A stretch of 64,000 nt of DNA from Pseudanabaena sp. PCC 7367. Lineage in GTDB: Bacteria; Cyanobacteriota; Cyanobacteriia; Pseudanabaenales; Pseudanabaenaceae. Below the pieces are notes generated by a model that was given only the letters and a program-made list of their open reading frames with translations, did no database searches and had not been told where the DNA came from. The position numbers were made by a program, and so were the translations under genes. The DNA lies in assembly GCF_000317065.1 (NCBI RefSeq), contig NC_019701.1:1612001-1676000 (forward strand). The letters run 5' to 3'. This document shows, piece by piece, positions 4,366 to 63,456 of the stretch (positions are counted from its first letter, which is position 1; each line of letters begins with the position of its first letter).

Positions 4366-6720
4366 ATGGATAAAAATACTGCCCCCTTTTCTGCTGCTGA
4401 GATCGCTGCCGAGGGGATCAAGCCCGATGAATATAAGGAGCTAGTGCAGCGCTTGGGCAGGCATCCGAATAAAGCTGAACTGGGTATGTTTGGCGTGATG
4501 TGGTCGGAGCATTGTTGCTACAAAAACTCACGGCCATTGTTGAGTCAATTTCCCACCAAGGGCGATCGCATTCTGGTGGGCCCTGGCGAGAATGCTGGTG
4601 TAATCAAGCTCACCGATGAGATTGCCATTTGTTTTAAAATCGAAAGCCACAATCGCCCCTCTGCGGTCGAACCCTATCAAGGTGCTGCCACTGGTGTCGG
4701 TGGCATCCTGCGCGATATTTTCACGATGGGAGCCAGACCGATCGCCATTCTTAACTCGCTTCGGTTCGGCGATCTGGCTGATCCCTGGGTGCGCGATCGG
4801 GTCAATGGGGTGGTCAGTGGGATCGCTGGCTATGGTAATTGTGTGGGCGTGCCGACGATCGGCGGTGAGGTGTATTTTGATCCGGCCTATAATCGCAATC
4901 CGCTGGTAAATGCGATGGCGATCGGGATTATGGAAACCCCGCAGATCGTTAAAGCTGGCGCTTCTGGCGTAGGCAACCCTGTGTTGTATGTGGGATCGAC
5001 CACTGGCCGAGATGGCATGAAGGGGGCGAGTTTTGCCAGTGCTGAGCTGAGCGACAAATCCGAGCAAGATCGACCTGCCGTGCAAGTTGGCGATCCTTTT
5101 TTGGAAAAGTCCTTAATTGAAGCTTGCCTAGAAGCCTTTAAAACTGGGGCAGTGGTGGCCGCTCAGGATATGGGGGCGGCGGGGTTAACTTGCTCTACTT
5201 CGGAGATGGCGGCCAAGGGCAATATTGGGATTGAATTAGACCTGGATAAAATCCCCGCCCGCGAAACTGGCATGAGTGCCTATGAATATTTGCTCTCGGA
5301 ATCTCAGGAGCGGATGTTGTTTGTGGCACACCAGGATCGCACCCAGGAGTTAATTGATATTTTCGATCGCTGGGGGCTCCATGCAGTCGTGGCGGGGCAG
5401 GTAATTGCTGAGCCGATCGTGCGGATTTTGTGGCAGGGCAAAACAGCAGCGGAAATTCCGGCTACGGCTCTGGCCGACAACACCCCAATCTATTACCGCG
5501 AACAGTCTGATCCACCAGATTATTTGGTTAAAGCCTGGCAATGGCAGGAAAGTGAGCTGGTTGAGCTTAGTAATATTAGTAATAGAATCGCACCAGCATC
5601 AGCCCTGTTGCAATTGCTCGATAGTCCGGCGATCGCCTCTAAGGCATGGGTCTATCGTCAATATGATCATCAGGTGCAGAATAATACGGTGGTGATGCCG
5701 GGGGCTGCCGATGCGGCGGTGATCAGGGTGCGCGATCTAGATTTTGGGGTGGGTGAGTTGGCCTTACCTACCCTGGAAAATCAACGGGTGGGGATCGCAG
5801 CCACGGTCGATTGCAATGCCAGATATGTATATCTCGATCCCCATGAGGGAGCCAAGCTGGCAGTCGTGGAAGCAGCGCGTAATCTGGCTTGTGTAGGCGC
5901 AGAGCCGATCGCCATTACGAACAATCTCAACTTTGGTAGCCCAGAAAATAGCGTTGGTTATTGGCAATTGGCGGAAGCCTGTAAGGGGATTTCTGCTGCT
6001 TGCCGAGAGATGGGTACACCGGTCACGGGCGGTAATGTGTCGCTCTACAACGAGACGATCGATAGTGATGGCAACTCTAAACCAATTTATCCTACGCCTG
6101 TCATTGGCATGGTGGGCTTGGTGGCAGACTTTACGAAAACCTGCACCCAGGGCTGGCAAAATCCTGGCGATTTAATCTATTTAATTGGCGCAATTGATCC
6201 GGCATCGGTAACCCTAGCGGCTTCAGAATTTTTGGCGATCGTAGCTGACCAAGTGGCGGGGCGGCCATTGCCAGTTAATTTTGAACTAGAAAAGCAAGTC
6301 CAGGCGGTTTGTCGAGATGGAATTGCCCAGGGTTGGCTTAGGTCTGCCCACGATTGTGCGGAAGGTGGTTTGGCGGTGGCGATCGCTGAGTCTTGTATTG
6401 CTGGCGATCTTGCCGCACAAATTAATTTACCTTTGGCTGGGAATCCATCACCTGATCAACTTGCCATCCTGAAGTTGCTATTTGGGGAGGGAGCCAGCCG
6501 GATTGTGGTTTCCGTTCAGCCCAGTGATCAAAAAGCCTGGGAGGCTTATCTCAAGCAACATCTGGGTGATCATTGGCAATTAATTGGTGCCGTAGGCGAT
6601 CGTAATAGTGATTTCACGATCACGATCGGCAATGATTCGCAATCTTCGATCGACTTGCCCCTTGAGCAAATCAGCCAGACTTATAACCAGGCAATTCCGC
6701 GTCGGATGAATGCTCGGTAG
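4366..6720 (+). CDS. purL: Phosphoribosylformylglycinamidine synthase subunit PurL
   Basis: This is the large synthetase subunit of the fourth step of purine synthesis, turning FGAR, ATP and glutamine-derived ammonia into FGAM; it works with PurS and PurQ, which are not in this window. Recognisable parts are the N-terminal [20 protein letters not shown], the PurM-like ATP-binding segment [18 protein letters not shown], and in the second half [10 protein letters not shown] and [12 protein letters not shown]. The length (784 residues from the ATG at 4366) suits the small, PurQ-dependent type. A TTG 39 bases upstream stays in frame, but the residues it would add do not look like PurL. Confidence 0.95.
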
Positions 6721-6758
6721 CAATAACTGAGATAAATTTACTGAATTACTATGAAAAT

Positions 6759-7259
6759 TTATTCATCGTCATCAAAACTCAATTCAGTCTGTTTAACCGA
6801 AATTTGTGGTTTTCTTACTTCAATAAATGGATCATTTAATTGCCCCTGAAACTTAGCAATTATTCCCTCATCAAGAGTCTCAAAATAATTAACCTTACTT
6901 TTGATAGCGGTTGCAACATGGATTGCATCAAAAGCCTTTATCCCAAAATCCCAGGCGATTCTTCTAGATAATTCTGCTGTTTTTCTCTCTAGCTCTCTTA
7001 TCACAATATACTCGTGGCTAAAAAACAACTCTATTTTCCTGCTTTCTTCACTTTCAGGTAGCGCGGGCTGTTTTTGTGATCCTATCTTAATTATTGAAGC
7101 TAAGGTTAAGGAGGATGTAACTATTAAAAGGTTCCCTTTCTCAGCCTCATTCAATACATCTATACATCCTTGCAAACCATTCTCATCACCTTTCAAAATT
7201 GTTAAAAAATTGCATGTATCCCAGTAGTGTAGAGGTAGTTTGACTTTTTCCTTAGGCAT
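6759..7259 (-). CDS. PIN-domain protein (putative RNase, toxin-like)
   Basis: A 166-residue protein with the PIN fold signature. An early Asp lies in YWDTCNFL (about residue 14), acidic residues in the middle (PESEESRKIE), a third acidic site in KAFDAIHVATAI and a fourth in FETLDEGI. These positions form the metal site of PIN nucleases such as VapC toxins. A charged tail (ELSFDDDE) follows the domain. I chose the ATG at 7259, which overlaps the stop of the upstream gene by 8 bases and suggests translational coupling; a TTG at 7280 is also open. The pair contains no CGATCG, unlike the neighbours. A toxin role is inference. Confidence 0.7.
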   Translation of the reverse strand: MPKEKVKLPLHYWDTCNFLTILKGDENGLQGCIDVLNEAEKGNLLIVTSSLTLASIIKIGSQKQPALPESEESRKIELFFSHEYIVIRELERKTAELSRRIAWDFGIKAFDAIHVATAIKSKVNYFETLDEGIIAKFQGQLNDPFIEVRKPQISVKQTELSFDDDE

Positions 7260-8001
7260 CGAGACTCCGCCATAGCCCAACTATTTGATCAACATCAGGC
7301 AACTCGTTTTCTATTGGGAAAATTTTGATCTCTTCCACTTCCACTTTTACTCGCTTACCATCCTCTCTAGAATATATCAGCCCATACACATAAACTCTTC
7401 GCTCTAAAGCCTGGGTTGCTTGACCTAAAATTTGTCGATCAAAATAGCAATCAATGGTCTCAAGGGTTAACCGATCCGAGAGCTTAAATATAGGTTTATC
7501 TCTCAAATCAATGACATTTAAAATTCCTTCAACCGCCCCATAGCTTTTATGCCTACCGCCTATTATTTTTTCAATATTCCTTGCTAATTTTTTGTCTAGG
7601 TTTATTTGCCCGAAAGAGTTAAGTAGGCTAACCGAGTCTTCACTGGTAGAGAGATTAGCTAGCTTCTGCGCATTTGTTAATAAGGCATCAGAAAAATAAG
7701 TAGGTCTAATCCCTGTGGTCGTAATATCTCTTAAGCCACTTTCTAGCTTCTTTATTTTTTTTATTATTTCTCGTTCTGAGGTTTTACCGTCCTTCGATAT
7801 CCCTTCTACAGTGACCGAATAGCTACCAGCCTTAGCACTTGTAACAATCCATTCAACCTTGGTCTTGTGAGTTGATGCAGTTTTCCGATCAATTTCCTTG
7901 AGAATATTTACAAGATACTTTTGCGCCTCAAGTACCTTAGAGAGAGGAAGCGCTTTATCCCTGATAGTCATAGTAAGCTGTCGCTCAGCTCTGTCAGCCA
8001 T
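7252..8001 (-). CDS. Hypothetical protein, upstream partner of PIN protein, 249 aa
   Basis: I do not recognise this protein. It is soluble and has a charged N-terminal half rich in Lys, with likely helices around IKKIKKLESGLRDI. A C-terminal beta-rich region contains GRHKSYGAVEGILNVIDLR, a short YFDRQILGQA motif, an ERRVYVYGLIYSR segment and the end QIVGLWRSLDA. It is the first gene of a two-gene unit; its TAA overlaps the ATG of the PIN gene. It is far longer than classical antitoxins and shows no obvious AbrB, RHH or Phd/YefM N-terminus. It may be a regulator or substrate adaptor of the nuclease (inference). Confidence 0.65.
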   Translation of the reverse strand: MADRAERQLTMTIRDKALPLSKVLEAQKYLVNILKEIDRKTASTHKTKVEWIVTSAKAGSYSVTVEGISKDGKTSEREIIKKIKKLESGLRDITTTGIRPTYFSDALLTNAQKLANLSTSEDSVSLLNSFGQINLDKKLARNIEKIIGGRHKSYGAVEGILNVIDLRDKPIFKLSDRLTLETIDCYFDRQILGQATQALERRVYVYGLIYSREDGKRVKVEVEEIKIFPIENELPDVDQIVGLWRSLDA

Positions 8002-8135
8002 TGGTGAAACCTAACATAAGAACAAAGGCATTTTGAACGGGGATAAGTAATATCTAAATATATTGTGCAACATAATACCTGAACTGTGCAAATTCAGACT
8101 TCTGATTGCTTCTTATTTGAAAGTCAAATAGCAAA

Positions 8136-9605
8136 CTACTTACCAATACAAAACCGACTGAAAATCTGATCCAGAACAGACTCGGTCACCGATTCTCCAG
8201 TGATCTCACCGATCGCCATGATCGTTGCCCTTAAATCAATTGTCCAGAAGTCTAATGGTAATTGCGCGGCGATCGCCTCTTGTACCTTGGCCAAGCCTTG
8301 CACTGCTCTGAGCAAGCATTCTTTCTGGCGTTGATTGATCGCCACATCAAGATCACCCGCTTGAATCGCGCTGGCATTCACACTGGCCAGGATCGCTGCT
8401 TCTAGTTGTTCGATCCCCTGATTTAAGGCGGCGGCCGTTTTGACTGTGGCCATAAATCGCTTGCGATCGTCTAGTTGCGGTAAGTCTGAACTGGATTGGT
8501 AATCTGATAATTGAGCTAGTTGCTCCGATCGATTGCTTAAAGCTGATTGAGTTAGATTTGTTAGATTTGTTTGAGTTGCTTGATCATCAAGTAAATCAAC
8601 TTTATTAATAATCAAAATAATTGGGCGATCGCCAACAATTTGATAAATCTGTTCATCTGCCTCAGTCCAACCCTGCGCCGCATCGATTACCAGCAAAACT
8701 AAATCCGCTTCCTGGGCAGCCTGTTGCGATCGCTCCACGCCAATTTGCTCGACCATATCTTCAGTCTGGCGAATCCCCGCCGTATCCAGCACCTTGATTG
8801 GGATACCCCCCACGACCAAGTGCGAATCAACCACATCGCGGGTTGTGCCCGGTAGATCGGTGACGATCGCCCGATCGCTGCGACTCCACATATTCAACAA
8901 GCTGGACTTACCCACATTTGGCCTGCCCACGATCGCCACTTTGAGGCCGGAATGCAGCAGCTCACCGCGATCGGCTGTATCCAAAATTTGCTGAGCTTGC
9001 TGAGCAATTAGCGCCAATTGCTGGGCTACCCATGCTTGATCTAATGGTGGTAAGTCATCCTCAAAATCAATTCTGGCCTCCACTTCTGCCAGTATATCCA
9101 GACACCTAGCCCTTAGGTCTTTGAGGGGTTGTGCCAGTTTACCTCGTAACGAAGCGATCGCTGCCTGTGCCGCCTGGGGCGAAGTCGAACCCACCAGATT
9201 GTTGATCCCCTCCGCCTGGGTTAAATCAATCCGGCCATTCAGAAATGCCCGCAACGTAAATTCACCGGGTTGTGCCAGTCTGGCTCCTTGCTCCAGGCAA
9301 AGGTTCAGGATTTGCTGCACCGCGATCGCGCCGCCATGACAATGTAACTCGATCACATCTTCGCGGGTATAGGAACGCGGGGCTTGCATGATTAATAGCA
9401 AACATTCATCGATCGTCTCACCAGTGTCAGGAGATTTGGCATAACCATACAAAATCCGGTGGCTCTGCCAGGTTTGGTTGCCTGGGGCAGAAAAGATGCA
9501 TTTGGCGATCGCTAGGGCTTGCTCGCCGGACATGCGCACAATACCAACGCTGCCCTGTTGCGGTACGATGGCGGTGGCGATCGCGGCGATGGTGTCGCTA
9601 ATCAT
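8136..9605 (-). CDS. mnmE: tRNA modification GTPase MnmE
   Basis: With MnmG this GTPase makes the 5-carboxymethylaminomethyl group on U34 of several tRNAs. The N-terminal folate-binding domain starts with [22 protein letters not shown] helical part follows, carrying an inserted G domain with G1 [12 protein letters not shown], switch GTTRDV, G3 DTAG and G4 NKVD. The protein ends in the invariant FCIGK, whose Cys is needed for modification. At 489 residues it is slightly longer than usual, because of a Gln/Ser-rich stretch after the NKVD motif (about residues 340-375). ATG start at 9605, facing away from cbiB. Confidence 0.96.
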
Positions 9606-9867
9606 GTCAATAAGTTAATGTGCGTGAGTTCAGGTTTGAGGTACTTCCTGCTAAGTCCATATTCTCGATCGGTCATAAGAATAACTATAATCAAATCCAA
9701 TAGCCTGAATGAAATCGTTCTAACTACTGTTCTAGCAATGCTGCGACTATGGAGGATTAAAGATTGCTATTGCTGGTTGTAAGGGCTCTTGCGAATTTCT
9801 GTATTACCACGAGGGGCTTATTCACTCAACTGCTATTTGAACATTGATGCAAGCAGTCCATTGATTT

Positions 9868-10959
9868 ATGCCTGATCACCTAGCAATCTATATATATCAA
9901 GTAGCTAAGATATTTTCCCTAATATCATTCAAATCTGCGATCGGCCTAGAACAGACCGAATTGAATGGTTTATTGAATAGCCTAAGCTTTGTTCTACCGC
10001 TGATTATAGCCAGTATGCTCGATTGGCTTATCGGCGATCCCTGGGATTGGCTGCATCCAGTGCAGGTGATGGGGTGGGTGGTTGCCTGGGCGAAAAGCTT
10101 GATGCTTAAATATTTAGCCAATGAGCTAGCCCAAAGAATTGCTGGAGTTCTGTTGGCGATCGGCTTAATTATGGGCAGCTATGGAATCGCCTGGGCGCTG
10201 ATTTTTGCCGCTAGTAGGGTTAATCCCTGGTTTGGTCTGGTGGCAGAAAGTATTATGATCGCCAGTTGTTTAGCACACCGTAGTTTACAAGACGCGGCTG
10301 TTTCGGTGCTGGAGCCGATCGAAAAAGATGATCTTGATCTGGCCAGAAAAAAACTAGCGCTCTATGTGGGTAGAGATACTGAGCAGCTCGATCGGCCAGA
10401 AATCCTGCGGGCAGTTTTAGAAACCGTGGCCGAGAACTGCACCGATGGCGTGATTGCACCGTTGATTTTTGCGATCGTGGGTGGTGCGCCCTTGGCCTTG
10501 GCGTATAAAGCTGCCAGTACCCTCGATTCGATGATTGGCTATAAAGAAAAACCATACACTTACATCGGTTGGTTCAGCGCCAAGCTAGAGGATGCTTTAA
10601 CCTGGCTACCTTGTCGATTATTAGTCTTGGCGATCGCCTTGCTCAGCGGTCGTCCGGTTCAAATATGGCGCTTGTGTCAACGGGATGCGCCCCAAGATCC
10701 AAGCCCCAATGCTGGCTGGAGTGAATGTGCGTTTGCGGCGGCGCTAGGTGTGCAACTGGGGGGCAAAAACACCTACAGAGGCCTAGTAAAAACTAAACCT
10801 CTGCTGGGGGAGCCAGATCGACAAATCACCATTGCGGTGATCAATGAAACATTAGGATTGATGCAGCAATGTTTTGTGCTTTTTCTAGGGCTAGGTGTTC
10901 TATCTCACACTTTAGTTAGCTTTAGCGGCCTGCTTCTAGGGCTGATTCAGCACGGCTGA
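9868..10959 (+). CDS. cbiB: Adenosylcobinamide-phosphate synthase CbiB/CobD
   Basis: This membrane enzyme joins aminopropanol phosphate to adenosylcobyric acid late in cobalamin synthesis. Motifs seen are DWLIGDPWDWLHPVQVMG near the start, TENCTDG-like AENCTDGVIAPLIFA, AYKAASTLDSMIGYK and the C-terminal SPNAGWSECAFAAALGVQLGG. Several membrane helices are visible. The N-terminus is about 40 residues longer than typical CbiB; the ATG at 9868 is the first clear start, and a shorter form is possible. No cobalamin riboswitch was recognised in the 262 bases upstream. Its last 38 bases overlap psb27, which runs the other way. Confidence 0.9.
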   Translation: MPDHLAIYIYQVAKIFSLISFKSAIGLEQTELNGLLNSLSFVLPLIIASMLDWLIGDPWDWLHPVQVMGWVVAWAKSLMLKYLANELAQRIAGVLLAIGLIMGSYGIAWALIFAASRVNPWFGLVAESIMIASCLAHRSLQDAAVSVLEPIEKDDLDLARKKLALYVGRDTEQLDRPEILRAVLETVAENCTDGVIAPLIFAIVGGAPLALAYKAASTLDSMIGYKEKPYTYIGWFSAKLEDALTWLPCRLLVLAIALLSGRPVQIWRLCQRDAPQDPSPNAGWSECAFAAALGVQLGGKNTYRGLVKTKPLLGEPDRQITIAVINETLGLMQQCFVLFLGLGVLSHTLVSFSGLLLGLIQHG

Positions 10960-11419
10960 TTTGACTAATTGCCCGATCGGCTACCCGTTGTGGTACCGAT
11001 CGCTTGGTGGTGCCGTTGTAGTAGGAAGCCAGGGAATTGATTACCGTTCGCATCGTGGTGAAAGAGACCAGGCCAGTTTTACTATTGTCTGCACGGTAGC
11101 GAGCTGAATAGGCATTAATTCTAGCTCTAGTTTCAGCCTGGGCTTCGGAGCGATCGTCAGCATCCTTGGCTAGGCTGAGCGTATATTTAAGGCTTTCAAT
11201 CAATTTTTTCGTGTCATCGACATAATTGCCCGTCAAACCGGCATTAACTTTTTCCCGCAATTCTTTGGTAGTAAGCGGATTGCCAGAGCCTAGAGTATAG
11301 GTATTACGAGCCGCATATGCGCTGCTGGTACAAGTTAGCGCGATCGTTGCCACCAAAACTAGCGCAACTAGCTTAAAAACAATATTTTTTAATGATGATT
11401 TGAGCATATTTCTATTCAT
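10922..11419 (-). CDS. psb27: Photosystem II assembly protein Psb27
   Basis: Psb27 binds CP43 on the lumenal side of assembling photosystem II. The conserved core is present: LTGNYVDDTKKLIESL, ARINAYSARYR and SFTTMRTVINSLASYY, ending with a helix like the family's C-terminal helix. The 165 residues include a signal peptide, MNRNMLKS to about SAYA. Cyanobacterial Psb27 is usually a lipoprotein, but here the Cys follows ALT, a poor lipobox, and an AxA-type site (AYA) lies just after it. About 25 extra residues (from ARNTYTLGSGN to KVNAG) separate the signal from the usual mature start. The 3' end overlaps cbiB. Confidence 0.9.
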   Translation of the reverse strand: MNRNMLKSSLKNIVFKLVALVLVATIALTCTSSAYAARNTYTLGSGNPLTTKELREKVNAGLTGNYVDDTKKLIESLKYTLSLAKDADDRSEAQAETRARINAYSARYRADNSKTGLVSFTTMRTVINSLASYYNGTTKRSVPQRVADRAISQISRAESALEAGR

Positions 11420-12126
11420 AACTTATTCTATTCATAACTAAGATTTTGATGGTTAAACAGTTTCCGATGGCGTTCTTAATCTGCGACCACACTTTACTTT
11501 CTTCAGGATTTTTAGCCTATATCGCTAATTATCTTATAGTTTTTGGCGTACCAGCATTAATTACCCTAGCGGTATAGTTTTGCAAATGTCACAATTAGAT
11601 GACATTATGATCCCCATTTGATCCCCCAGCGATCCCCATTGCGGTAAAATGGCTTCGATCGATAAACCGTCTATGTACTGCTCTCAGTCAGCCCTGTCGA
11701 TGCATAACATTATCTTGGGGATCACTTGATTTAGTTTTTAATTGTTGATTAAGCATTAAATAATCATGTTTGTAGGCTATTGACCAAACTTGTATTTTTG
11801 TAACAGAATCTCATATAGCAAAAGCCTATGTAGATCCCGGTGATTCTGTTAAGCCAGCTAAGCCAAATGTTAAGTCAAGTTGGATCAAGTTTTACGATCG
11901 CTGAGCAACTGAGCCTAAGCACCTAAATCGATTGAGTTAATGTGATCGATATGTAGGTAAATCGATCGCTGCATCTATCTGCTGGTGATTTATCAGATTA
12001 AGAGTAGATTAAGAGTTTTCGCTAGCAGCTAGTTTTCTCGTTTCACCTTGTCAGTGCGTAATCCAACTTACGAGTTTAGTAATCACCGATCGCACATTTC
12101 CGCTAATTTCATTCGGAGCTGAACAG
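11420..12126. other. 707-base spacer between psb27 and the DUF4912 gene
   Basis: A divergent intergenic region with no open frame that I find convincing. It must hold promoters for psb27 (left) and the DUF4912 gene (right). It contains one clean inverted repeat (listed separately), a run of GATCCCC-type motifs around 11610-11640, and several CGATCG sites toward the right end. The base before the DUF4912 start shows a weak ribosome site (TCGGAG). I saw no tRNA, terminator or known small RNA here. Confidence 0.5.
11585..11606. promoter_or_regulatory. Inverted repeat AATGTCA-N8-TGACATT, possible operator
   Basis: Perfect 7-base arms separated by 8 bases (CAATTAGA). The site lies about 166 bases upstream of psb27 and 520 bases upstream of the DUF4912 gene, between divergent genes. 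There is no T-run after it, so a terminator is unlikely. The regulator is unknown; the shape suits a dimeric DNA-binding protein. Confidence 0.4.
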
Positions 12127-14277
12127 ATGCCTAAAGAGATTCCCCCCCTAGAAGAGATGACCCTACGCCAATTGCGTAAACAAGCCCAAAAGTATGAAAT
12201 TTCGCGCTACAGTCGGATGCGTAAGGATCAGCTACTGGCAGAGATCAAGCAGGCTAAGGAAGTGGCCGAAAGCGCTGTGATGCTTGAGCATGCCATGTTG
12301 TCTAGTTTTGATCCAAAATACGATCAGACTGAAAATATGGAGGCGAAGAAATTTGATCTGGGCAACAGAGAAATTAAGCCAGTTGAATTACTAGCTGATG
12401 TGGATGCTGAACTTGGCGATCTGCCTCAGGGCTATGGTGAAAGCCGAATTGTGCTCATGCCCAGAGACCCGCAGTGGGCCTATGCCTATTGGGATATTAC
12501 CAATGACCTGAAGGAAGAAAAGCGCTCCCAGGGTGGTCAGCAATTGGTGTTGCGGTTGTATGACTCAACCAACGTCGATCTCGATCGCCAAGCCCCCCAT
12601 AGTGTGCAGGAATATTACTGTGATGAATTAGCCAAGGAATGGCATTTGCCAATTCCAGTTAGCGATCGTGACTATACAGTCGAGATTGGTTATCGCACCA
12701 ACGATGGTAAATGGCTACCACTATGTCGATCGGCTTCGGTACGCATTCCTCCCACTTACCCATCCGATTGGGTTGATGATCACTTTGTGACGGTTAACTG
12801 GGAGCAAAGCCTAAGGGGAGCCAAAGTTTTTGAATTGGGTCGCCCCACCTCTGCCCCCACAGCCGAAAAGAGCCATGAAGAAATGTATGGCATGGCCAAA
12901 GAAGCCGAGTCACAGCGGGTCGCAGGTTCGGCCTATGGCTCTCAGCAAATGTCTGGTGCTGGCCTGGAGACAGAGTCGATCAGCTCCTATGTTTTCCCTT
13001 CCGGGGTAGGTAGTTGGAGTGGTGGTGCTGTCTCTGGTGTTGGCATGGGAGCTTCCGAACAAACTATGTCTGGGGCTGGAGCCCTGACCGCATCTGGCGC
13101 TGGCATGTCTGGTATTGGCGCACTAACTGCCTCTGGTATCTCTGGCAGTGGGATCGCCGCCTTAACTACTTCAGGTAGTGGGGTTGGCTTCTTGACCACC
13201 TCTGGTGTGGGTATGTCAGGTATTGGTGCATTAACCGCCTCTGGTATTTCTGGCAGTGGGATCGGTTATGTATCTGCCTCTGGTGTGGGTATGTCTGGTA
13301 TTGCAGGATTAACCGCTTCTGGCATTTCTGGTAGTGGGATTGGTTATGTATCTGCCTCTGGTGTAGGTATGTCTGGTATTGCAGGATTAACCGCGTCTGG
13401 CATTTCTGGTAGCGGGATTGGTTATGTATCTGCCTCTGGCGTAGGCATGTCTGGTATTGCAGGATTAACCGCGTCTGGCATTTCTGGCAGTGGGATCGGT
13501 TATGTATCTGCCTCTGGTGTGGGTATGTCTGGTATTGCAGGATTAACCGCTTCTGGCATTTCTGGTAGTGGGATTGGTTATGTATCTGCCTCTGGTGTAG
13601 GCATGTCTGGTATTGCAGGATTAACCGCGTCTGGCATTTCTGGTAGTGGGATTGGTTATGTATCTGCCTCTGGCGTAGGTATGTCAGGTATTGCAGGATT
13701 AACCGCTTCTGGCATTTCTGGTAGTGGGATTGGTTATGTATCTGCCTCTGGTGTAGGTATGTCTGGTATTGCAGGATTAACCGCTTCTGGCATTTCTGGC
13801 AGCGGCATTGGCTATCTAACCACTTCTGGGATGGGGATGTCCGGCGCTGGCTATCTAACTGCCTCTGGGATGGGAATGTCGGGGGTTGGTGCCCTTACTA
13901 CTTCTGGCCTTGGGATGTCTGGAATTGGTTATCGGACTACCTCTGGCATGGGAATGTCGGGGGTTGGCCTGTTCTCTGGTTCTGGTGTACCCAAGCGACC
14001 GCGCCAGTTCTGGTTGGTTGCTGATGCTGAGTTAATTGTCTATGGTGCAACTGAGCCGGATGCCAATGTCACGATCGCTGGTAGACCAGTTAAGCTGGAA
14101 TCCGATGGTACGTTCCGTTTCCATATGTCCTTCCCAGATGGTTTGGTTGACTTCCCCATTTTTGCGGTGGCCGCTGATGGTGAACAAACCCGATCGATTC
14201 ATATGAAGTTTGAGCGCCAAACTCTCGATCGCAATACCAACACCAAAGAAGAAGCAGTCCCAGAATGGATTGCCTAG
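12127..14277 (+). CDS. DUF4912 protein with Rho-N-like head and large Gly/Ser repeat array
   Basis: A 716-residue protein. Residues 10-42 (LRQLRKQAQKYEISRYSRMR and following) resemble the small Rho N-terminal/SAP-like helical domain. Residues about 100-220 are a DUF4912 domain (YGESRIVLMPRDPQWAYAYWD, then YTVEIGYRTNDGKWLPL). Residues about 300-620 are low complexity, built from units such as GMSGIAGLTASG and ISGSGIGYVSASGV; eight 26-residue units are nearly identical. Residues 625-716 form a second globular part (RPRQFWLVADAELIVYGAT, then a beta-rich end). No signal peptide is seen, so it is probably cytoplasmic. The function is unknown. It stands alone with long spacers on both sides. Confidence 0.8.
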   Translation: MPKEIPPLEEMTLRQLRKQAQKYEISRYSRMRKDQLLAEIKQAKEVAESAVMLEHAMLSSFDPKYDQTENMEAKKFDLGNREIKPVELLADVDAELGDLPQGYGESRIVLMPRDPQWAYAYWDITNDLKEEKRSQGGQQLVLRLYDSTNVDLDRQAPHSVQEYYCDELAKEWHLPIPVSDRDYTVEIGYRTNDGKWLPLCRSASVRIPPTYPSDWVDDHFVTVNWEQSLRGAKVFELGRPTSAPTAEKSHEEMYGMAKEAESQRVAGSAYGSQQMSGAGLETESISSYVFPSGVGSWSGGAVSGVGMGASEQTMSGAGALTASGAGMSGIGALTASGISGSGIAALTTSGSGVGFLTTSGVGMSGIGALTASGISGSGIGYVSASGVGMSGIAGLTASGISGSGIGYVSASGVGMSGIAGLTASGISGSGIGYVSASGVGMSGIAGLTASGISGSGIGYVSASGVGMSGIAGLTASGISGSGIGYVSASGVGMSGIAGLTASGISGSGIGYVSASGVGMSGIAGLTASGISGSGIGYVSASGVGMSGIAGLTASGISGSGIGYLTTSGMGMSGAGYLTASGMGMSGVGALTTSGLGMSGIGYRTTSGMGMSGVGLFSGSGVPKRPRQFWLVADAELIVYGATEPDANVTIAGRPVKLESDGTFRFHMSFPDGLVDFPIFAVAADGEQTRSIHMKFERQTLDRNTNTKEEAVPEWIA
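13210..13833 (+). repeat. Eight in-frame 78-base tandem repeats
   Basis: Starting at codon 362 of the DUF4912 gene, eight copies of a 78-base unit follow without a gap, encoding GMSGI(A/G)xLTASG plus ISGSGIGYVSASGV. The sequence ATTGCAGGATTAACC recurs at exact 78-base steps in seven of them. Copies differ mainly at synonymous third positions (for example GCTTCT versus GCGTCT), and the protein is almost unchanged. The outer units on both sides are more diverged 13-26-residue versions. Length change by slippage or recombination between copies is expected. Confidence 0.95.
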
Positions 14278-14330
14278 AACTGCTTTAATCTTCTATTTCT
14301 GCGATTGGTATTGGTAGTTTTATGCCTTGG

Positions 14331-14376
14331 CGGGGAGATTGAGCAAAATTGCTTTGCTTTTAAATTTTTCTCCCCG
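14331..14376 (+). terminator. Hairpin after the DUF4912 gene, possible terminator
   Basis: CGGGGAG pairs with CTCCCCG, and inside the loop AGCAAA pairs with TTTGCT. The structure begins 53 bases after the stop codon. A T-rich run (TTTTAAATTTTT) lies within rather than after the outer stem, so it is not a textbook intrinsic terminator. The position fits transcript-end formation or protection. Confidence 0.4.
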
Positions 14377-14460
14377 ATCGCATTTTCCACGTAGCTAATC
14401 AAGCTTGATGCTTGACTCATGCAGTAAATCACTTAAATTGCTGGCCAATGATTAACTAAC

Positions 14461-14898
14461 CTATTGCCATCCTAAATTTACCTGGATGGTTTTTTCATAC
14501 ATGGCGCTCAGCCTGAGTTGTTCTAGCCACGATCGCATTTCTGCTTCGGAAGCGACGGAGGTTGATTGCCCGGTAATTGGATCATAGGCAGACCAATAGA
14601 CATGACCGCGCCGATCGTATTTTTGCCATACCTTTACTTCTGGTTCTTTGGTAAGGCGATCGCCAAGGTTACTAAAGCCAGCTTTGAGGTGTTTAACTAA
14701 TTCAGTGGCAGTTTTTTTAATCGATCGATAACTAAGACCACGCTGACCGTTTGCGATCGGCTGGTCTTGATCAACCTTTAATTCATCTTTTAGATCGGTT
14801 CGATCAGAGCGATCAGAGCGGTCAGATAAAGCATTAAGTAGCTCAAGCCGCTTATATTCTTGCCATTGTACTTTAGTTTGCCTTAGGTTATTTTTCAT
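14461..14898 (-). CDS. Hypothetical protein, 145 aa
   Basis: Soluble, charged protein with no family recognised. It has a basic N-terminus (MKNNLRQTKVQWQEYKR), then a short SDRSDRSDR repeat encoded by imperfect 9-base copies. The more conserved-looking C-terminal half has KVWQKYDRRGHVYWSAYDP, then a helix (SEAEMRSWLEQL). The WQKYDRRGHVYWSAYDP part looks like a small beta-hairpin region. ATG start at 14898. It is convergent with the DUF4912 gene and lies more than 330 bases from the LysR gene. Confidence 0.6.
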   Translation of the reverse strand: MKNNLRQTKVQWQEYKRLELLNALSDRSDRSDRTDLKDELKVDQDQPIANGQRGLSYRSIKKTATELVKHLKAGFSNLGDRLTKEPEVKVWQKYDRRGHVYWSAYDPITGQSTSVASEAEMRSWLEQLRLSAMYEKTIQVNLGWQ

Positions 14899-15236
14899 TT
14901 TGACTCACCTCTGAGCGGTTGGATAATGTGGTTTCATGATTTGGCCAACTGAAGGAACCTATCGCAACCTTGCTGATGCAAAATTAATCGTGATTGCCAG
15001 AATTCGATTAATCAGACGGCAAACATGCTTTAGCTATTTCCCAATAAATCTCTGATTCAAGGTCAACATTGGGTAAATAGGCAACAGGCTCAATTCGTAG
15101 CGATTCCTCACACCCCTAATATATTCAGTTCTATCCCAAGATTCAAAAACAAGCCCGCATGGCTTACATGAATAAAATTAATGAAAGGCGCAACAGTTAG
15201 CTGGCTCGATCGGCACCTGATGGCGATCGCTATGAT
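14899..15236. other. 338-base spacer before the LysR gene's 3' end
   Basis: It holds no gene that I can support. A short hairpin (AAGCC/GGCTT near 15151-15166) and the string ATTCCTCACAC near 15105 were examined; neither supports a recognised small RNA. The promoter of the hypothetical gene ending at 14461 must lie at the left edge. Confidence 0.4.
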
Positions 15237-16202
15237 TCAGGCAGTCAGACTAGCTTTTAGGTAATTCTTGCTATAGGCTAACTGGGCAATATCATAGCTG
15301 CGCAGCATATCCAGGAACGCATAGACCGCAGGTACCTGCATGGCATTTTCCCGCATTGTCACGCCAATTTGACGATAGAGCGGTACTGGCAGGCTATAGG
15401 TTTGTAATTCTGAGGGGATCGGTTGGGCAGCCAAACGCGCCAGGATCGTCGATCCTAGTCCCTGTGACACCATTCTGATAATAGTTGAATCTTCACGCAC
15501 CACATAGGCCACGTTGAGCTTTTGATGCTGGGCTTCCAGATGCTTTCTGATCAAAATGCCGCAGGTATTGTTCTGGGGCACACTGATCAGCGGATAGGTG
15601 GTTAAATCTTCCCAACTAATATGATTGTTCTTGACTCTATGTTTGGGGCAGTAATCAGGTGGAAAGATGGCGATATACTCATCCCGCAGCAAGGGCCAAC
15701 TCAGGAAGCCTTCGCCGGTGGGCAGGTGGGTGATGCCGATGTCTGCATAGCCCTGACGCAGGGTTTGTTCAACTTCTTGATCGTCGTCGTGTTCAATGAT
15801 TCTGACCTTAATGCCGGGGAATTTCTGGCGAAAGTCTACTATGATTGCCGGTAGAATATAGGCCGCAGCACTACGAAAAGCCACCAGCCGAACTTCGCCA
15901 TTTTGAAGTCCCTTGGCCTGGTTAGCCGTTTGGGTCATCTCTTCCAGCGATCGCAAAATATTTTCTGCATAATCGAGCAATTGCTTGCCGATCGGCGTGA
16001 GTATTGCGCCATGACGACCGCGATTGAGCAAAACTACGCCTAACTGTTCTTCGAGGGCGGCGATCGCATGGGAGATGGCTGATTGAGAAATTTCCAGGTT
16101 CAGGGCAGCCTCGCCAAAACTACCAGATTCTGCCACGGCCACAAAGGCTCTGATCTGCGATAACTTAACCTGATTATGATTAAGGAGGTTGTTCCCATGC
16201 AT
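15237..16202 (-). CDS. LysR family transcriptional regulator
   Basis: A 321-residue regulator. The N-terminal winged helix-turn-helix is typical: IRAFVAVAESGSFGEAALNL, ISQSAISHAIAALEEQLG, then LLNRGRHGAILTPIG. The effector-binding half has two lobes, starting at about residue 95 (GEVRLVAFRSAAAYILPAII). LysR proteins bind DNA as tetramers and usually respond to a small metabolite; which one is not readable here. ATG at 16202; the first 12 residues are extra compared with many family members. A palindrome sits about 73 bases upstream (listed separately), suggesting self-regulation. No divergent target gene is adjacent. Confidence 0.9.
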   Translation of the reverse strand: MHGNNLLNHNQVKLSQIRAFVAVAESGSFGEAALNLEISQSAISHAIAALEEQLGVVLLNRGRHGAILTPIGKQLLDYAENILRSLEEMTQTANQAKGLQNGEVRLVAFRSAAAYILPAIIVDFRQKFPGIKVRIIEHDDDQEVEQTLRQGYADIGITHLPTGEGFLSWPLLRDEYIAIFPPDYCPKHRVKNNHISWEDLTTYPLISVPQNNTCGILIRKHLEAQHQKLNVAYVVREDSTIIRMVSQGLGSTILARLAAQPIPSELQTYSLPVPLYRQIGVTMRENAMQVPAVYAFLDMLRSYDIAQLAYSKNYLKASLTA

Positions 16203-60161: not shown

Positions 60162-61082
60162 ATGCCTATCAGTCGATCAACTAACTTAACCACTTTCCCA
60201 CCTAACTTAGCCCCAGGCCAAAAGGTCTGTGTAGTTGCCCCCAGTGGCGCATTATATGAGCAAGAAAAATTTCAACAGGGGGCGCAGATATGGCGCGATC
60301 GCGGTTATCAGGTAGAAATCCCGGCCACGCTCGTTAAGTCGCATGGCTACCTGGCTGGAGATGACCAGTATCGTCGGCAGCAATTAAGATCAGCTTGGAA
60401 TGATCCTGAATGTGTGGCGATCGTCTGTGCCAGAGGTGGATATGGCGCAACTAGATTATTAGAGGATTGGCATTGGCAAAATTTACAGCCAGAACCAAAA
60501 TGGCTGATTGGCTTTTCGGATATTACGGCGTTGTTGTGGGCTTGGCAGGCAAATCTAGGCATTGGTGGACTCCATGCCCCTTTGTTAACCACGATCGCGG
60601 CGGAACCCCATTGGTCGCAAGCATTAATGTTTGATTGGTTAGAGGGCAAGCGCGATCAACACAAACTAATCGGCCAGGGCTGGGGCAATGTGGCAGAAGG
60701 AATTTTGCTGCCTGGGAACCTGACTGTGGCCACTAATTTATTAAATACCAGCTTGTGTCCTGATTTAGACCAAGTGATCCTGGCGTTTGAAGATACTGGC
60801 GAGGCTCCCTACCGGGTCGATCGGATGTTGACCTATTGGCGCATGACTGGTGCATTGGCAAAAGTAGTTGGGATCGCACTGGGGCAGTTCGACCATGTGC
60901 CCTTATCTGCAAATCGACCTAACTGGCAGATGGAGCAGGTGTGGCGCGATCGTTTGGCTGATTTAAATATTCCCGTTGTAACTAATCTCCAATTTGGTCA
61001 TGGGTCACCAAATATGGCCTTGCCCGTAGGTTGTCAGGCCAGGATCGACGGGGCGGCAGGTGAGTTGAGTTTTTGGCGCTAA
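60162..61082 (+). CDS. S66 family LD-carboxypeptidase-like protein
   Basis: A 306-residue member of the S66 peptidase family, which includes LD-carboxypeptidase A (peptidoglycan tetrapeptide trimming and recycling) and MccF-type immunity peptidases. The nucleophile Ser is in LIGFSDITALL, Glu in AFEDTGEAPYRVDRML, and the charge-relay His in FGHGSPNMALPVG. There is no signal peptide, so it is cytoplasmic, as expected for LdcA. A GxGGYGATRLL part (ARGGYGATRLL) is the conserved oxyanion region. ATG at 60162, 286 bases after tRNA-His on the other strand. Confidence 0.9.
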   Translation: MPISRSTNLTTFPPNLAPGQKVCVVAPSGALYEQEKFQQGAQIWRDRGYQVEIPATLVKSHGYLAGDDQYRRQQLRSAWNDPECVAIVCARGGYGATRLLEDWHWQNLQPEPKWLIGFSDITALLWAWQANLGIGGLHAPLLTTIAAEPHWSQALMFDWLEGKRDQHKLIGQGWGNVAEGILLPGNLTVATNLLNTSLCPDLDQVILAFEDTGEAPYRVDRMLTYWRMTGALAKVVGIALGQFDHVPLSANRPNWQMEQVWRDRLADLNIPVVTNLQFGHGSPNMALPVGCQARIDGAAGELSFWR

Positions 61083-61350: not shown

Positions 61351-61995
61351 ATGTCACTAAAGGTCAAGTTATTAGAGGACAGTTTCGATCGGATCAAACC
61401 CAAAGCCAGAGCATTTAGCGCCAGTTTTTATCACAATCTATTTGAGATGTATCCAGTCGCAAAGCCGCTGTTTGCGAATACAGATATGATCGCGCAGCGA
61501 GAAAAGTTGATTAAGTCTCTGGTGCTGGTGACCAGCAATTTACGATCGCCAGATGTTCTCACTGAAACGCTGGCAGGGCTGGGTAGTCGGCATGTTGAAT
61601 ATGGTGCACTGCCCGAACATTATCCCTTGGTCGGTAATGCTCTGCTAGCTACATTTGAGGAATATTTAGGCACAGCATGGACTGAAGAGGTCAAGCAAGC
61701 CTGGGTAGAAGCCTATGCGGCGATCACGGAGCTGATGCTAGAAGGTGCGGACTACGGGCAGGAAGAGGTAAGCCTGGAATCAGCGGTGCCAGAACCTACG
61801 CCTATTTCTTCTGAAAATCAGATCGCCTATGAAGCCCCAATTGCTGCTAGCTATGGCAGTTCTAAGCCTCCTAAGCCAAAGACTAACAAATACAATCAGG
61901 AAACCAAGGCTAGTGATGTGAATTGGCCAGTGGTTGGTGGTTTGCTGGGGGTTGGTGGCATCCTGATTGTGGTGATCTGGCTTAGTAATACTTAA
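61351..61995 (+). CDS. Single-domain globin with C-terminal membrane anchor
   Basis: A 214-residue protein. Residues 1-135 are a flavohemoglobin-type globin: B-helix SASFYHNLFEMYP with the B10 Tyr place, and F-helix GSRHVEYGALPEHYPLVGNA with the proximal His. A helix-rich end (AWVEAYAAITELMLEGADY) follows. Residues 140-190 are a Pro/Ser/Lys-rich linker and the last 20 (VVGGLLGVGGILIVVIWLSNT) a membrane helix. It may bind oxygen or nitric oxide at the membrane face. No reductase domain follows. I chose the ATG at 61351 at the globin start; a TTG at 61321 adds ten residues. Confidence 0.85.
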   Translation: MSLKVKLLEDSFDRIKPKARAFSASFYHNLFEMYPVAKPLFANTDMIAQREKLIKSLVLVTSNLRSPDVLTETLAGLGSRHVEYGALPEHYPLVGNALLATFEEYLGTAWTEEVKQAWVEAYAAITELMLEGADYGQEEVSLESAVPEPTPISSENQIAYEAPIAASYGSSKPPKPKTNKYNQETKASDVNWPVVGGLLGVGGILIVVIWLSNT

Positions 61996-61997
61996 AG

Positions 61998-62381
61998 CTA
62001 ATACTCAAAGCTGGATTCTAAGTTAGATCTAACCGGGCGATCGAAAAAATTTTTATCTTGGCCAGACTGATTGCCCAAGGCGATCGCCACCAGAAAAATT
62101 GCCACGAACAGGGCAAAAATTTGTGCAGCTACGATGATCCTAAAAACAGTCTGAAAACTGGACTTGCGGGTTTTATGTCGAAACAGTTTTTGCCCCAGAA
62201 TTGCGCCCAATGTGCCTCCCATTAATGTCAACAGGTGAAACGTATTCTCAGAGATACGCAGCCCTTTACGCTGGGCAGATTGCTTATCAAAGACATAGAG
62301 AACCAAAACCAGGCCATTGACCACCATCAGATAGGCGATCGCTAGCGCGATCCGATTCAACAGGGCTGGGGTGATGGCCAT
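61998..62381 (-). CDS. DUF1294 family membrane protein
   Basis: A 127-residue protein. The first helix (IALAIAYLMVVNGLVLVLYVFD) is followed by the family pattern DKQSAQRKGLRISENTFHLL, TLMGGTLGAILGQKLFRHKT and KSSFQTVF, and then a second helix pair (IIVAAQIFALFVAIFLVAI). The function is unknown. ATG at 62381. It converges on the globin gene, two bases from its stop codon. Confidence 0.85.
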   Translation of the reverse strand: MAITPALLNRIALAIAYLMVVNGLVLVLYVFDKQSAQRKGLRISENTFHLLTLMGGTLGAILGQKLFRHKTRKSSFQTVFRIIVAAQIFALFVAIFLVAIALGNQSGQDKNFFDRPVRSNLESSFEY

Positions 62382-62712: not shown

Positions 62713-63456
62713 ATGGCCAAAAATTATTCCTCAGATCCAAACAATCGCCCGAAACCTGCGAAGCCATCTAAGCCTCAGCGGCCTAGTGATTCGGCTCAAA
62801 ATCGCAATCGCCCAGAAAAGCCAGTCAAAAACGAAGTTAGAAATCGATCCCAGGAATCATCGCTGTCTAGCAACTTGGAAAAAGCTGAAAACTTAGAACC
62901 ACAAATAGCCTATCAAGAATTATCAAACCAGGGACATGCGGTGTATCAAAAGCCAATCACCAAGGCCGACAGACGAAATCAAATGCTTGCCTTGTCGATC
63001 GAGATTGTGGTGGTAATTATGGTTGGTTTACTGGGGGCAAAGTTTTTATTCCCGCAATCGGTCGGTAATCTTAGTAATGAGAGCAATTTAGAGACAGGAA
63101 ATCTCAACCCTAGCGATCGTGGTGATGATGTATTTACCGACAACAATTTTGACAACAGTAATGATGTTGCAGTAGCGCAAGATAGCAACCTTTCCCTTAA
63201 TTGCCAAGACTTTGCTGTTAAAAAGGCTGCTCAATATGTCTTGAACTCGAACCCAAGCGATCCGTTTGGGCTCGATCGTGACAAGAATAACCTTGCCTGT
63301 GAGCGTTTACCTGAGGGCGATCGCCCCAACAAAGAAGATTTAAATTGTGATGATTTTATTGCGCAAAAAGCAGCCCAACATGTGCTGGAGCTAGACCCAA
63401 GTGATCCATTTGGGCTCGATCGGGATGGCAATAAGCTGGCCTGCGAAAGTCTATAA
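62713..63456 (+). CDS. Membrane protein with two Excalibur calcium-binding repeats
   Basis: A 247-residue protein. A long polar, Pro/Lys/Asn-rich N-terminal part is followed by one membrane helix (IEIVVVIMVGLLGAKFLF, about residues 95-112) and a linker. Two tandem Excalibur motifs end it: LNCQDFAVKKAAQYVL with DPFGLDRDKNNLACE, and LNCDDFIAQKAAQHVL with DPFGLDRDGNKLACE. Each has the paired Cys and the DxDxxxxxCE calcium-loop pattern. The DPFGLDRD part is also nearly identical in DNA, suggesting a recent internal duplication. Excalibur modules are probably extracytoplasmic. ATG at 62713. Confidence 0.8.
   Translation: MAKNYSSDPNNRPKPAKPSKPQRPSDSAQNRNRPEKPVKNEVRNRSQESSLSSNLEKAENLEPQIAYQELSNQGHAVYQKPITKADRRNQMLALSIEIVVVIMVGLLGAKFLFPQSVGNLSNESNLETGNLNPSDRGDDVFTDNNFDNSNDVAVAQDSNLSLNCQDFAVKKAAQYVLNSNPSDPFGLDRDKNNLACERLPEGDRPNKEDLNCDDFIAQKAAQHVLELDPSDPFGLDRDGNKLACESL

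Follow-up and report, generated by a model that had tools for sequence, protein, structure and literature searches.

A cyanobacterial globin with a predicted C-terminal membrane helix, and a multi-haem gene cluster beside its tailed relatives

The 64,000-nucleotide stretch of Pseudanabaena sp. PCC 7367 DNA analysed here (the window) encodes a globin of 214 residues that continues past its haem domain into a linker and an uncharged C-terminal segment, predicted to be a membrane helix. Judged by its sequence, the protein belongs with other tailed globins of cyanobacteria, in which one to three globin domains stand in tandem; the majority of this group are encoded by the first gene of a multi-haem gene cluster. 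Taken together, the tailed globins and this cluster point to a membrane electron system based on haem that has not been described before. The globin domain, the pocket residues, the hydrophobic tail, the absence of a reductase domain, the relatives and the gene link can all be read from sequence, and on these features we build the more conditional proposals discussed below.

The globin domain and its haem pocket

The gene (61351..61995, plus strand, stop codon included) runs from an ATG at 61351, with a GGAG a short way 5' of it, to a stop at 61995. Globin is the sole Pfam family matched by the product (6.3e-17 over residues 25-126; 62.6 bits, the cut-off being 22). The domain occupies residues 1-132 (61351..61746, plus strand), which AlphaFold2 predicts with high confidence as a six-helix globin, with pLDDT mostly above 90 and at least 90 over 121 residues. 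Its closest solved structures are Hell's Gate globin I of Methylacidiphilum infernorum (3s1i, 2.2e-23) and a globin-Roadblock protein (3wfw, 3.8e-22), and when the model is compared with structures 3s1i ranks first (Z 20.8, rmsd 1.4, 130 aligned).

Four pocket residues are invariant in all 87 rows of an alignment of the window protein with 86 relatives, in which arrays were entered as the last globin and tail only and fusions and outlying branches were left out: Tyr27 at B10 (codon 61429..61431), Phe41 at CD1, Gln49 at E7 (61495..61497) and His81, the proximal haem ligand, at F8 (61591..61593), all on the plus strand. The helix names derive from the alignment to 3s1i and from the residue names in the accessible part of PMC11203436. 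The original prediction had named beforehand a misaligned haem-binding His as a finding that could overturn it, and the F8 His aligns in 87/87. Hell's Gate globin I shares both the fold and these four residues. Thus, on its sequence, the window protein is well supported as a 3/3 globin with haem b, of the same type as Hell's Gate globin I, and it would be expected to bind haem and O2.

The protein belongs to the same family as Vitreoscilla globin and the bacterial single-domain F-type globins, which likewise lack a reductase. Flavohaemoglobin, the NO dioxygenase with a related globin domain, was considered and set aside: its model NF009805 covers residues 17-131 only, at 73.5 bits against 432, and the window protein has no FAD/NAD reductase domain. 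Similarly, a globin-coupled sensor was rejected, as no C-terminal signalling domain is present among the Pfam matches.

The linker and the C-terminal segment

Unlike a plain single-domain 3/3 globin of the F/M type, the window protein extends past its globin domain by a linker and hydrophobic tail of about 80 residues; the solved Hell's Gate protein also differs in having no linker or membrane tail. The linker (residues 133-189, 61747..61917, plus strand) carries the family motif ADY-x(n)-V-x-L and then becomes rich in Pro, Ser and Lys. It is followed by the uncharged segment, the longest such run in the tail at 25 residues (190-214, 61918..61992, plus strand), which hydropathy predicts to be a membrane helix and after whose best 19-mer only two residues remain, a short C-terminal end. 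The trait that marks the group, a C-terminal membrane segment after the ADY...V.L motif, is therefore present in the window globin.

Several tests bear on whether this segment is meaningful. None of 20,000 shuffles of the 80-residue tail equalled its best 19-residue Kyte-Doolittle mean of 2.42, and 105 of 20,000 did so when the entire protein was shuffled. A membrane-like segment found solely at the C-terminus occurred in 1 of 531 non-globin ORFs of at least 120 residues in the neighbourhoods fetched. When the last 28 residues were compared with 32 other tails, with shuffling to allow for the composition-driven likeness of hydrophobic sequences, the best match was the tail of L004 (genome G360) at a z of 11.7, a score that 0 of 300 shuffles of the L004 tail reached; the next tails, 13 among the matches listed, lay 3.2-8.2 SD above shuffles. 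The shuffles and the tail similarity suggest that the window tail probably descends from a common tailed ancestor and is no local accident. As AlphaFold2 gives no confident tail (pLDDT below 50 over residues 155-214, the model being unusable beyond residue 148), the helix rests on the sequence and on the relatives.

The claim of a globin with a C-terminal membrane anchor is thus borne out by the Pfam match and the tail statistics. The accompanying description of a Pro/Lys-rich linker is right for the window protein and does not extend to the group: the 25 residues ahead of the helix carry a net charge of +3 here and are net negative in 30 of the 33 other tailed relatives, so the Lys-rich linker is a peculiarity of this protein. 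Under the positive-inside rule, a positive stretch ahead of a helix suits a cytosolic N-terminal domain, and the +3 charge would accordingly suit a globin domain on the cytosolic side.

Relatives and domain architectures

With the window protein as query, matches came from 42 of the 386 phylum genomes (at 1e-5), 6 of the 38 genomes of the order and 83 of the 387 class genomes (at 1e-30). No tailed relative was found in the 37 other genomes of the order, and in the five that gave a match the gene is tail-less or broken. We classified 130 relatives, which are mainly the strong ones and not all globins, weaker phylum matches being partly included; labels came from a hydropathy rule, length limits and a hand-set list, and ten loci were excluded as truncated or broken (L018, L032, L044, L049, L050, L071, L097, L100, L119 and L145). 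Tail-less single globins account for 72 relatives and a tail-less double globin for one (L107, whose short terminal stretch may be amphipathic), while 34 carry one C-terminal membrane segment, including the closest, L004 of G360, whose globin is 65% identical and whose tail is clearly similar. The other finding that could have overturned the prediction, a helix absent from every close homologue, is thus contradicted. These 34 comprise 10 single, 19 double and 5 triple globins.

The remaining architectures are diverse. One or two globins with membrane helices and pentapeptide repeats make up 13 relatives (L014, L015, L020, L024, L025, L026, L037, L054-L057, L126 and L127; Pfam was run on L015), nine have a C-terminal globin on another protein, and one is a histidine kinase. 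Globins of the window globin's group end two MscS-type mechanosensitive channels (L143:2602-4434 and L151:2572-4410), dCache-HAMP-guanylate cyclases (L039, L041 and relatives) and a protein kinase-AAA-GAF-cyclase (L053:391-6186), L159 is a globin-histidine kinase, and L045 joins a cupin to a globin.

On a tree built from 170 globin domains, 12 changes suffice to explain the tailed label (50.9 when shuffled), although the tree rests on few columns and many of its forks are poorly separated. The window globin lies at such a deep, poorly separated fork beside L007 and L099, which are also tailed single globins. Copies of the globin within one array are 70-98% identical and in part cluster by lineage, which suggests repeated local duplication.

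A multi-haem gene cluster beside the tailed globins

The cluster emerged from an all-against-all comparison of the genes neighbouring all 34 tailed loci and 43 of the tail-less loci, its families being named with Pfam and NCBIfam. The counts, which are lower bounds because of contig ends, are at least 28/34 tailed and 6/43 tail-less loci for a penta-haem cytochrome c, 28/34 and 5/43 for a hexa-haem cytochrome c, 26/34 and 4/43 for a Tll0287-type haem lipoprotein, 23/34 and 4/43 for a four-histidine membrane protein, 18/34 and 4/43 for a thioredoxin-like protein, 20/34 and 3/43 for ResB, and 17/34 and 2/43 for ResC. The last two are a cytochrome c maturation-type pair. Among the tail-less loci, the penta-haem gene accompanies six: L035 (in the window's genome), L062, L103, L107, L112 and L153.

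The hexa-haem gene gives the same association from the opposite direction. It occurs in 36 of the 387 class genomes, always as a single copy, and a globin match is present in 33 of these 36 compared with 50 of the 351 others (Fisher p 1e-21, with related genomes not being independent). In 30 of the 36 genomes a globin gene precedes the hexa-haem gene by 615-908 bp on the same strand, the other six hexa-haem genes being near a contig end. Of these 30 globins 27 are tailed, and those of G482, G487 and G597 are tail-less. The cluster globin is tail-less in G213 as well, and none of these four genomes has a second globin match. The tail is thus not indispensable, and a general rule that a tailed globin acts in trans wherever the cluster globin lacks a tail is unsupported.

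In the membrane protein of the cluster, H98/H112 and H187/H201 (L059 numbering), with a spacing of 14 on two helices, are invariant in 27/27 sequences and, in a second count, in 28/28, a pattern that we take to be usual for a two-haem b-type protein; it is probably a di-haem b protein. Its Pfam match, DUF4405, is below the cut-off, Foldseek returned nothing at E <=0.001, and its profile found one unrelated match among solved structures (E 0.0012). The VIA-align hits include E. coli superoxide oxidase (Z 9.0), cytochrome b6 (8.9) and formate dehydrogenase N gamma (7.3) together with unrelated helical proteins, one of which takes the top row (Z 9.2), so this fold support for a di-haem b protein is suggestive at most.

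The penta-haem and Tll0287-type proteins had no match among solved structures at 0.01. The hexa-haem protein resembles an eight-haem nitrite reductase weakly (6.7e-6 over 51 residues), and its matches to DmsE-type decahaem families fall below those families' cut-offs. CxxCH is present in 30/30 of the Tll0287-type proteins of the cluster. In the accessible part of PMC12889525, stand-alone members of the Tll0287-like family are judged to be redox proteins and fused members NO sensors, and the words 'globin' and 'operon' do not occur in that part. In some genomes the cluster also contains another globin, divergent and tail-less, which is 177-178 residues long and has a conserved C-terminal extension (L061:4834-5367 and L153:3980-4510).

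Two globins and one cluster in the window's genome

The window's genome holds two globins of this type. The second, of 147 residues and tail-less, heads a cluster about 1.7 Mb from the window (G000:C2:3349000-3367000, locus L180; genes at L180:5437-15833, all on the minus strand of L180). There, the tail-less globin (9322-9765) is followed by the penta-haem cytochrome (8652-9293), the hexa-haem cytochrome (7804-8649), the Tll0287-type lipoprotein (7075-7746, Pfam 1e-17), the four-histidine membrane protein (6188-6808) and the thioredoxin-like protein (5437-5943); on the other side of the globin lie genes for a pentapeptide protein (10419-11345), a Rieske protein (11684-12154), ResC (12239-14002) and ResB (14292-15833).

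The window globin is not the lead gene of a cluster: it is flanked by genes for an S66 peptidase (60162-61082) and, on the other strand, a DUF1294 protein (61998-62381), and neither multi-haem cluster genes nor an NO-specific gene were seen beside it. The suggestion that the globin might adjoin respiratory or photosynthetic complexes consequently holds in part for the relatives, through their multi-haem cytochrome cluster, and not for the neighbours of the window copy. NtcA-type GTA-N8-TAC sites number 8 in the window against 5.8 expected, with none just upstream of the globin gene, and a promoter and terminator scan gave no excess over shuffles. A tailed globin away from the cluster is not peculiar to one genome: G005, G131 and G511 each carry a tailed single globin and lack the hexa-haem gene, and in G539, which has the cluster, another tailed single globin lies elsewhere. 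Together with the window's genome, these indicate that a tailed globin outside the cluster is a recurrent state.

Discussion

We tentatively favour, at somewhat less than even confidence, a cytosol-facing, membrane-tethered globin that handles O2 or NO, most plausibly as an NO dioxygenase, and that is re-reduced by membrane haem proteins. As a tail-anchored protein, the globin would be held on the cytosolic face by its single C-terminal helix, and there it would bind O2 tightly and convert NO to nitrate, or otherwise handle NO and O2, at the membrane. Having no reductase domain, it would be re-reduced by the membrane haem proteins, and the window copy, being outside the cluster, might work with the cluster proteins in trans. 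The cytosolic side, the NO dioxygenation and this route of reduction are what we infer. We favour NO because its dioxygenation is widespread among globins, because of a fusion to an NO synthase, and because the hexa-haem protein weakly resembles eight-haem nitrite reductase. According to the available text of PMC3820574, NO dioxygenation is common in globins and membrane association may aid reduction; in that of PMC6104048, a globin modelled on 3s1i is fused to an NO synthase in Synechococcus PCC 7335, and conversion of NO to nitrate is proposed. Against the favoured reading count the position of the window copy outside the cluster, the tail-less cluster globin in its genome, the tail-less cluster globins of G213, G482, G487 and G597, the tailed globins of G005, G131 and G511 in genomes lacking the hexa-haem gene, the lack of an NO-specific gene seen beside the window copy, and the fusions of other branches of the group to signalling proteins and channels. 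Caution about NO also comes from the judgement that stand-alone Tll0287-type proteins are redox proteins rather than NO sensors.

We could speculate further that the tailed globins are the cytosolic heads of an undescribed trans-membrane haem complex of cyanobacteria, with the penta- and hexa-haem cytochromes and the Tll0287-type lipoprotein outside, the di-haem b protein across the membrane, one to three globins inside, and its own ResB and ResC. Electrons would pass between the periplasm or quinone and globin-bound O2 or NO, and the window protein would be a detached head able to serve in trans. We consider this possible but doubtful.

Other functions can be drawn from the same evidence. The globin could be a membrane-held O2 or NO sensor that signals to a partner by contact, with no catalysis, and the sibling fusions to dCache-HAMP-guanylate cyclases, a protein kinase-AAA-GAF-cyclase, a histidine kinase and MscS-type channels would suit sensing equally well. 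The tails of the tailed group, however, carry no signalling domain, and two or three globins in a row beside a multi-haem cluster better fit redox work or ligand capacity, which makes sensing rather unlikely in our view. A role like that proposed for Vitreoscilla globin, in which O2 is supplied to or buffered for a membrane respiratory oxidase, is another reading; repeated globins would raise the capacity for it, and the Tyr B10/Gln E7 pocket is that of the O2-binding Hell's Gate globin I; but no terminal oxidase was seen among the recurring neighbours and oxygenic phototrophs produce their own O2 in the light, and we hold O2 supply to be quite improbable.

The cluster may instead be a trans-membrane haem chain that feeds a periplasmic reductase (acting on nitrite, NO or some other acceptor) or exports electrons, with the globin only clearing leaking NO or guarding the chain from O2. 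The weak nitrite reductase and sub-cut-off DmsE-type matches of the hexa-haem protein, whose decahaem resemblance could equally mean electron export, and the adjoining ResB/ResC genes are consistent with such a chain, which is nonetheless unlikely given that the matches may come from CxxCH spacing alone and that the window copy is outside the cluster. Finally, a soluble globin with a degenerate or accidental C-terminus and no membrane role would agree with the unconfident AlphaFold2 tail and with the lack of tailed relatives elsewhere in the order; it is rejected by the shuffle, base-rate and tail-similarity tests and by an architecture common to 34 of 130 relatives, and we regard it as very improbable.

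Bacterial single-domain globins are regarded as soluble, and their electron donor is often not known; Vitreoscilla globin is not known to have a membrane helix, and to our knowledge Hell's Gate globin I has no multi-haem neighbours. Membrane-held globins as such are already known. In the accessible part of PMC3820574, fish globin X and the shore crab globin are held at the membrane by a lipid anchor, and Vitreoscilla globin is listed with membrane affinity; these animal globins use a fatty-acid anchor, whereas the window globin has a C-terminal helix. Similarly, Hell's Gate globin I is reported in the available text of PMC11203436 to bind or respond to lipids, which indicates that the globin fold tolerates membrane contact. 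We found no description of a C-terminal-helix globin, of globin arrays or of the multi-haem cluster in the literature searched, in part as partial texts and with subscription journals mostly outside it. The recurrent tail, the arrays of two or three globins and the link to the multi-haem genes offer a concrete candidate electron donor for bacterial globins, and in cells that make oxygen the tailed globins would bring globin chemistry to the bioenergetic membranes. The cluster, which lies outside the window, merits more interest than the single window gene, and the window's genome, with its lone tailed globin and its tail-less cluster globin, is a natural experiment on the role of the tail.

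Two further proteins were observed along the way. At L096:1360-2397 a globin leads into an extended series of PEPVAEP-like repeats, and in place of a membrane helix the protein has a short basic terminus that may be amphipathic. In the window itself, 62713-63456 encodes a protein that has an Excalibur domain, a single hydrophobic stretch and an N-terminal region rich in Pro and Lys.
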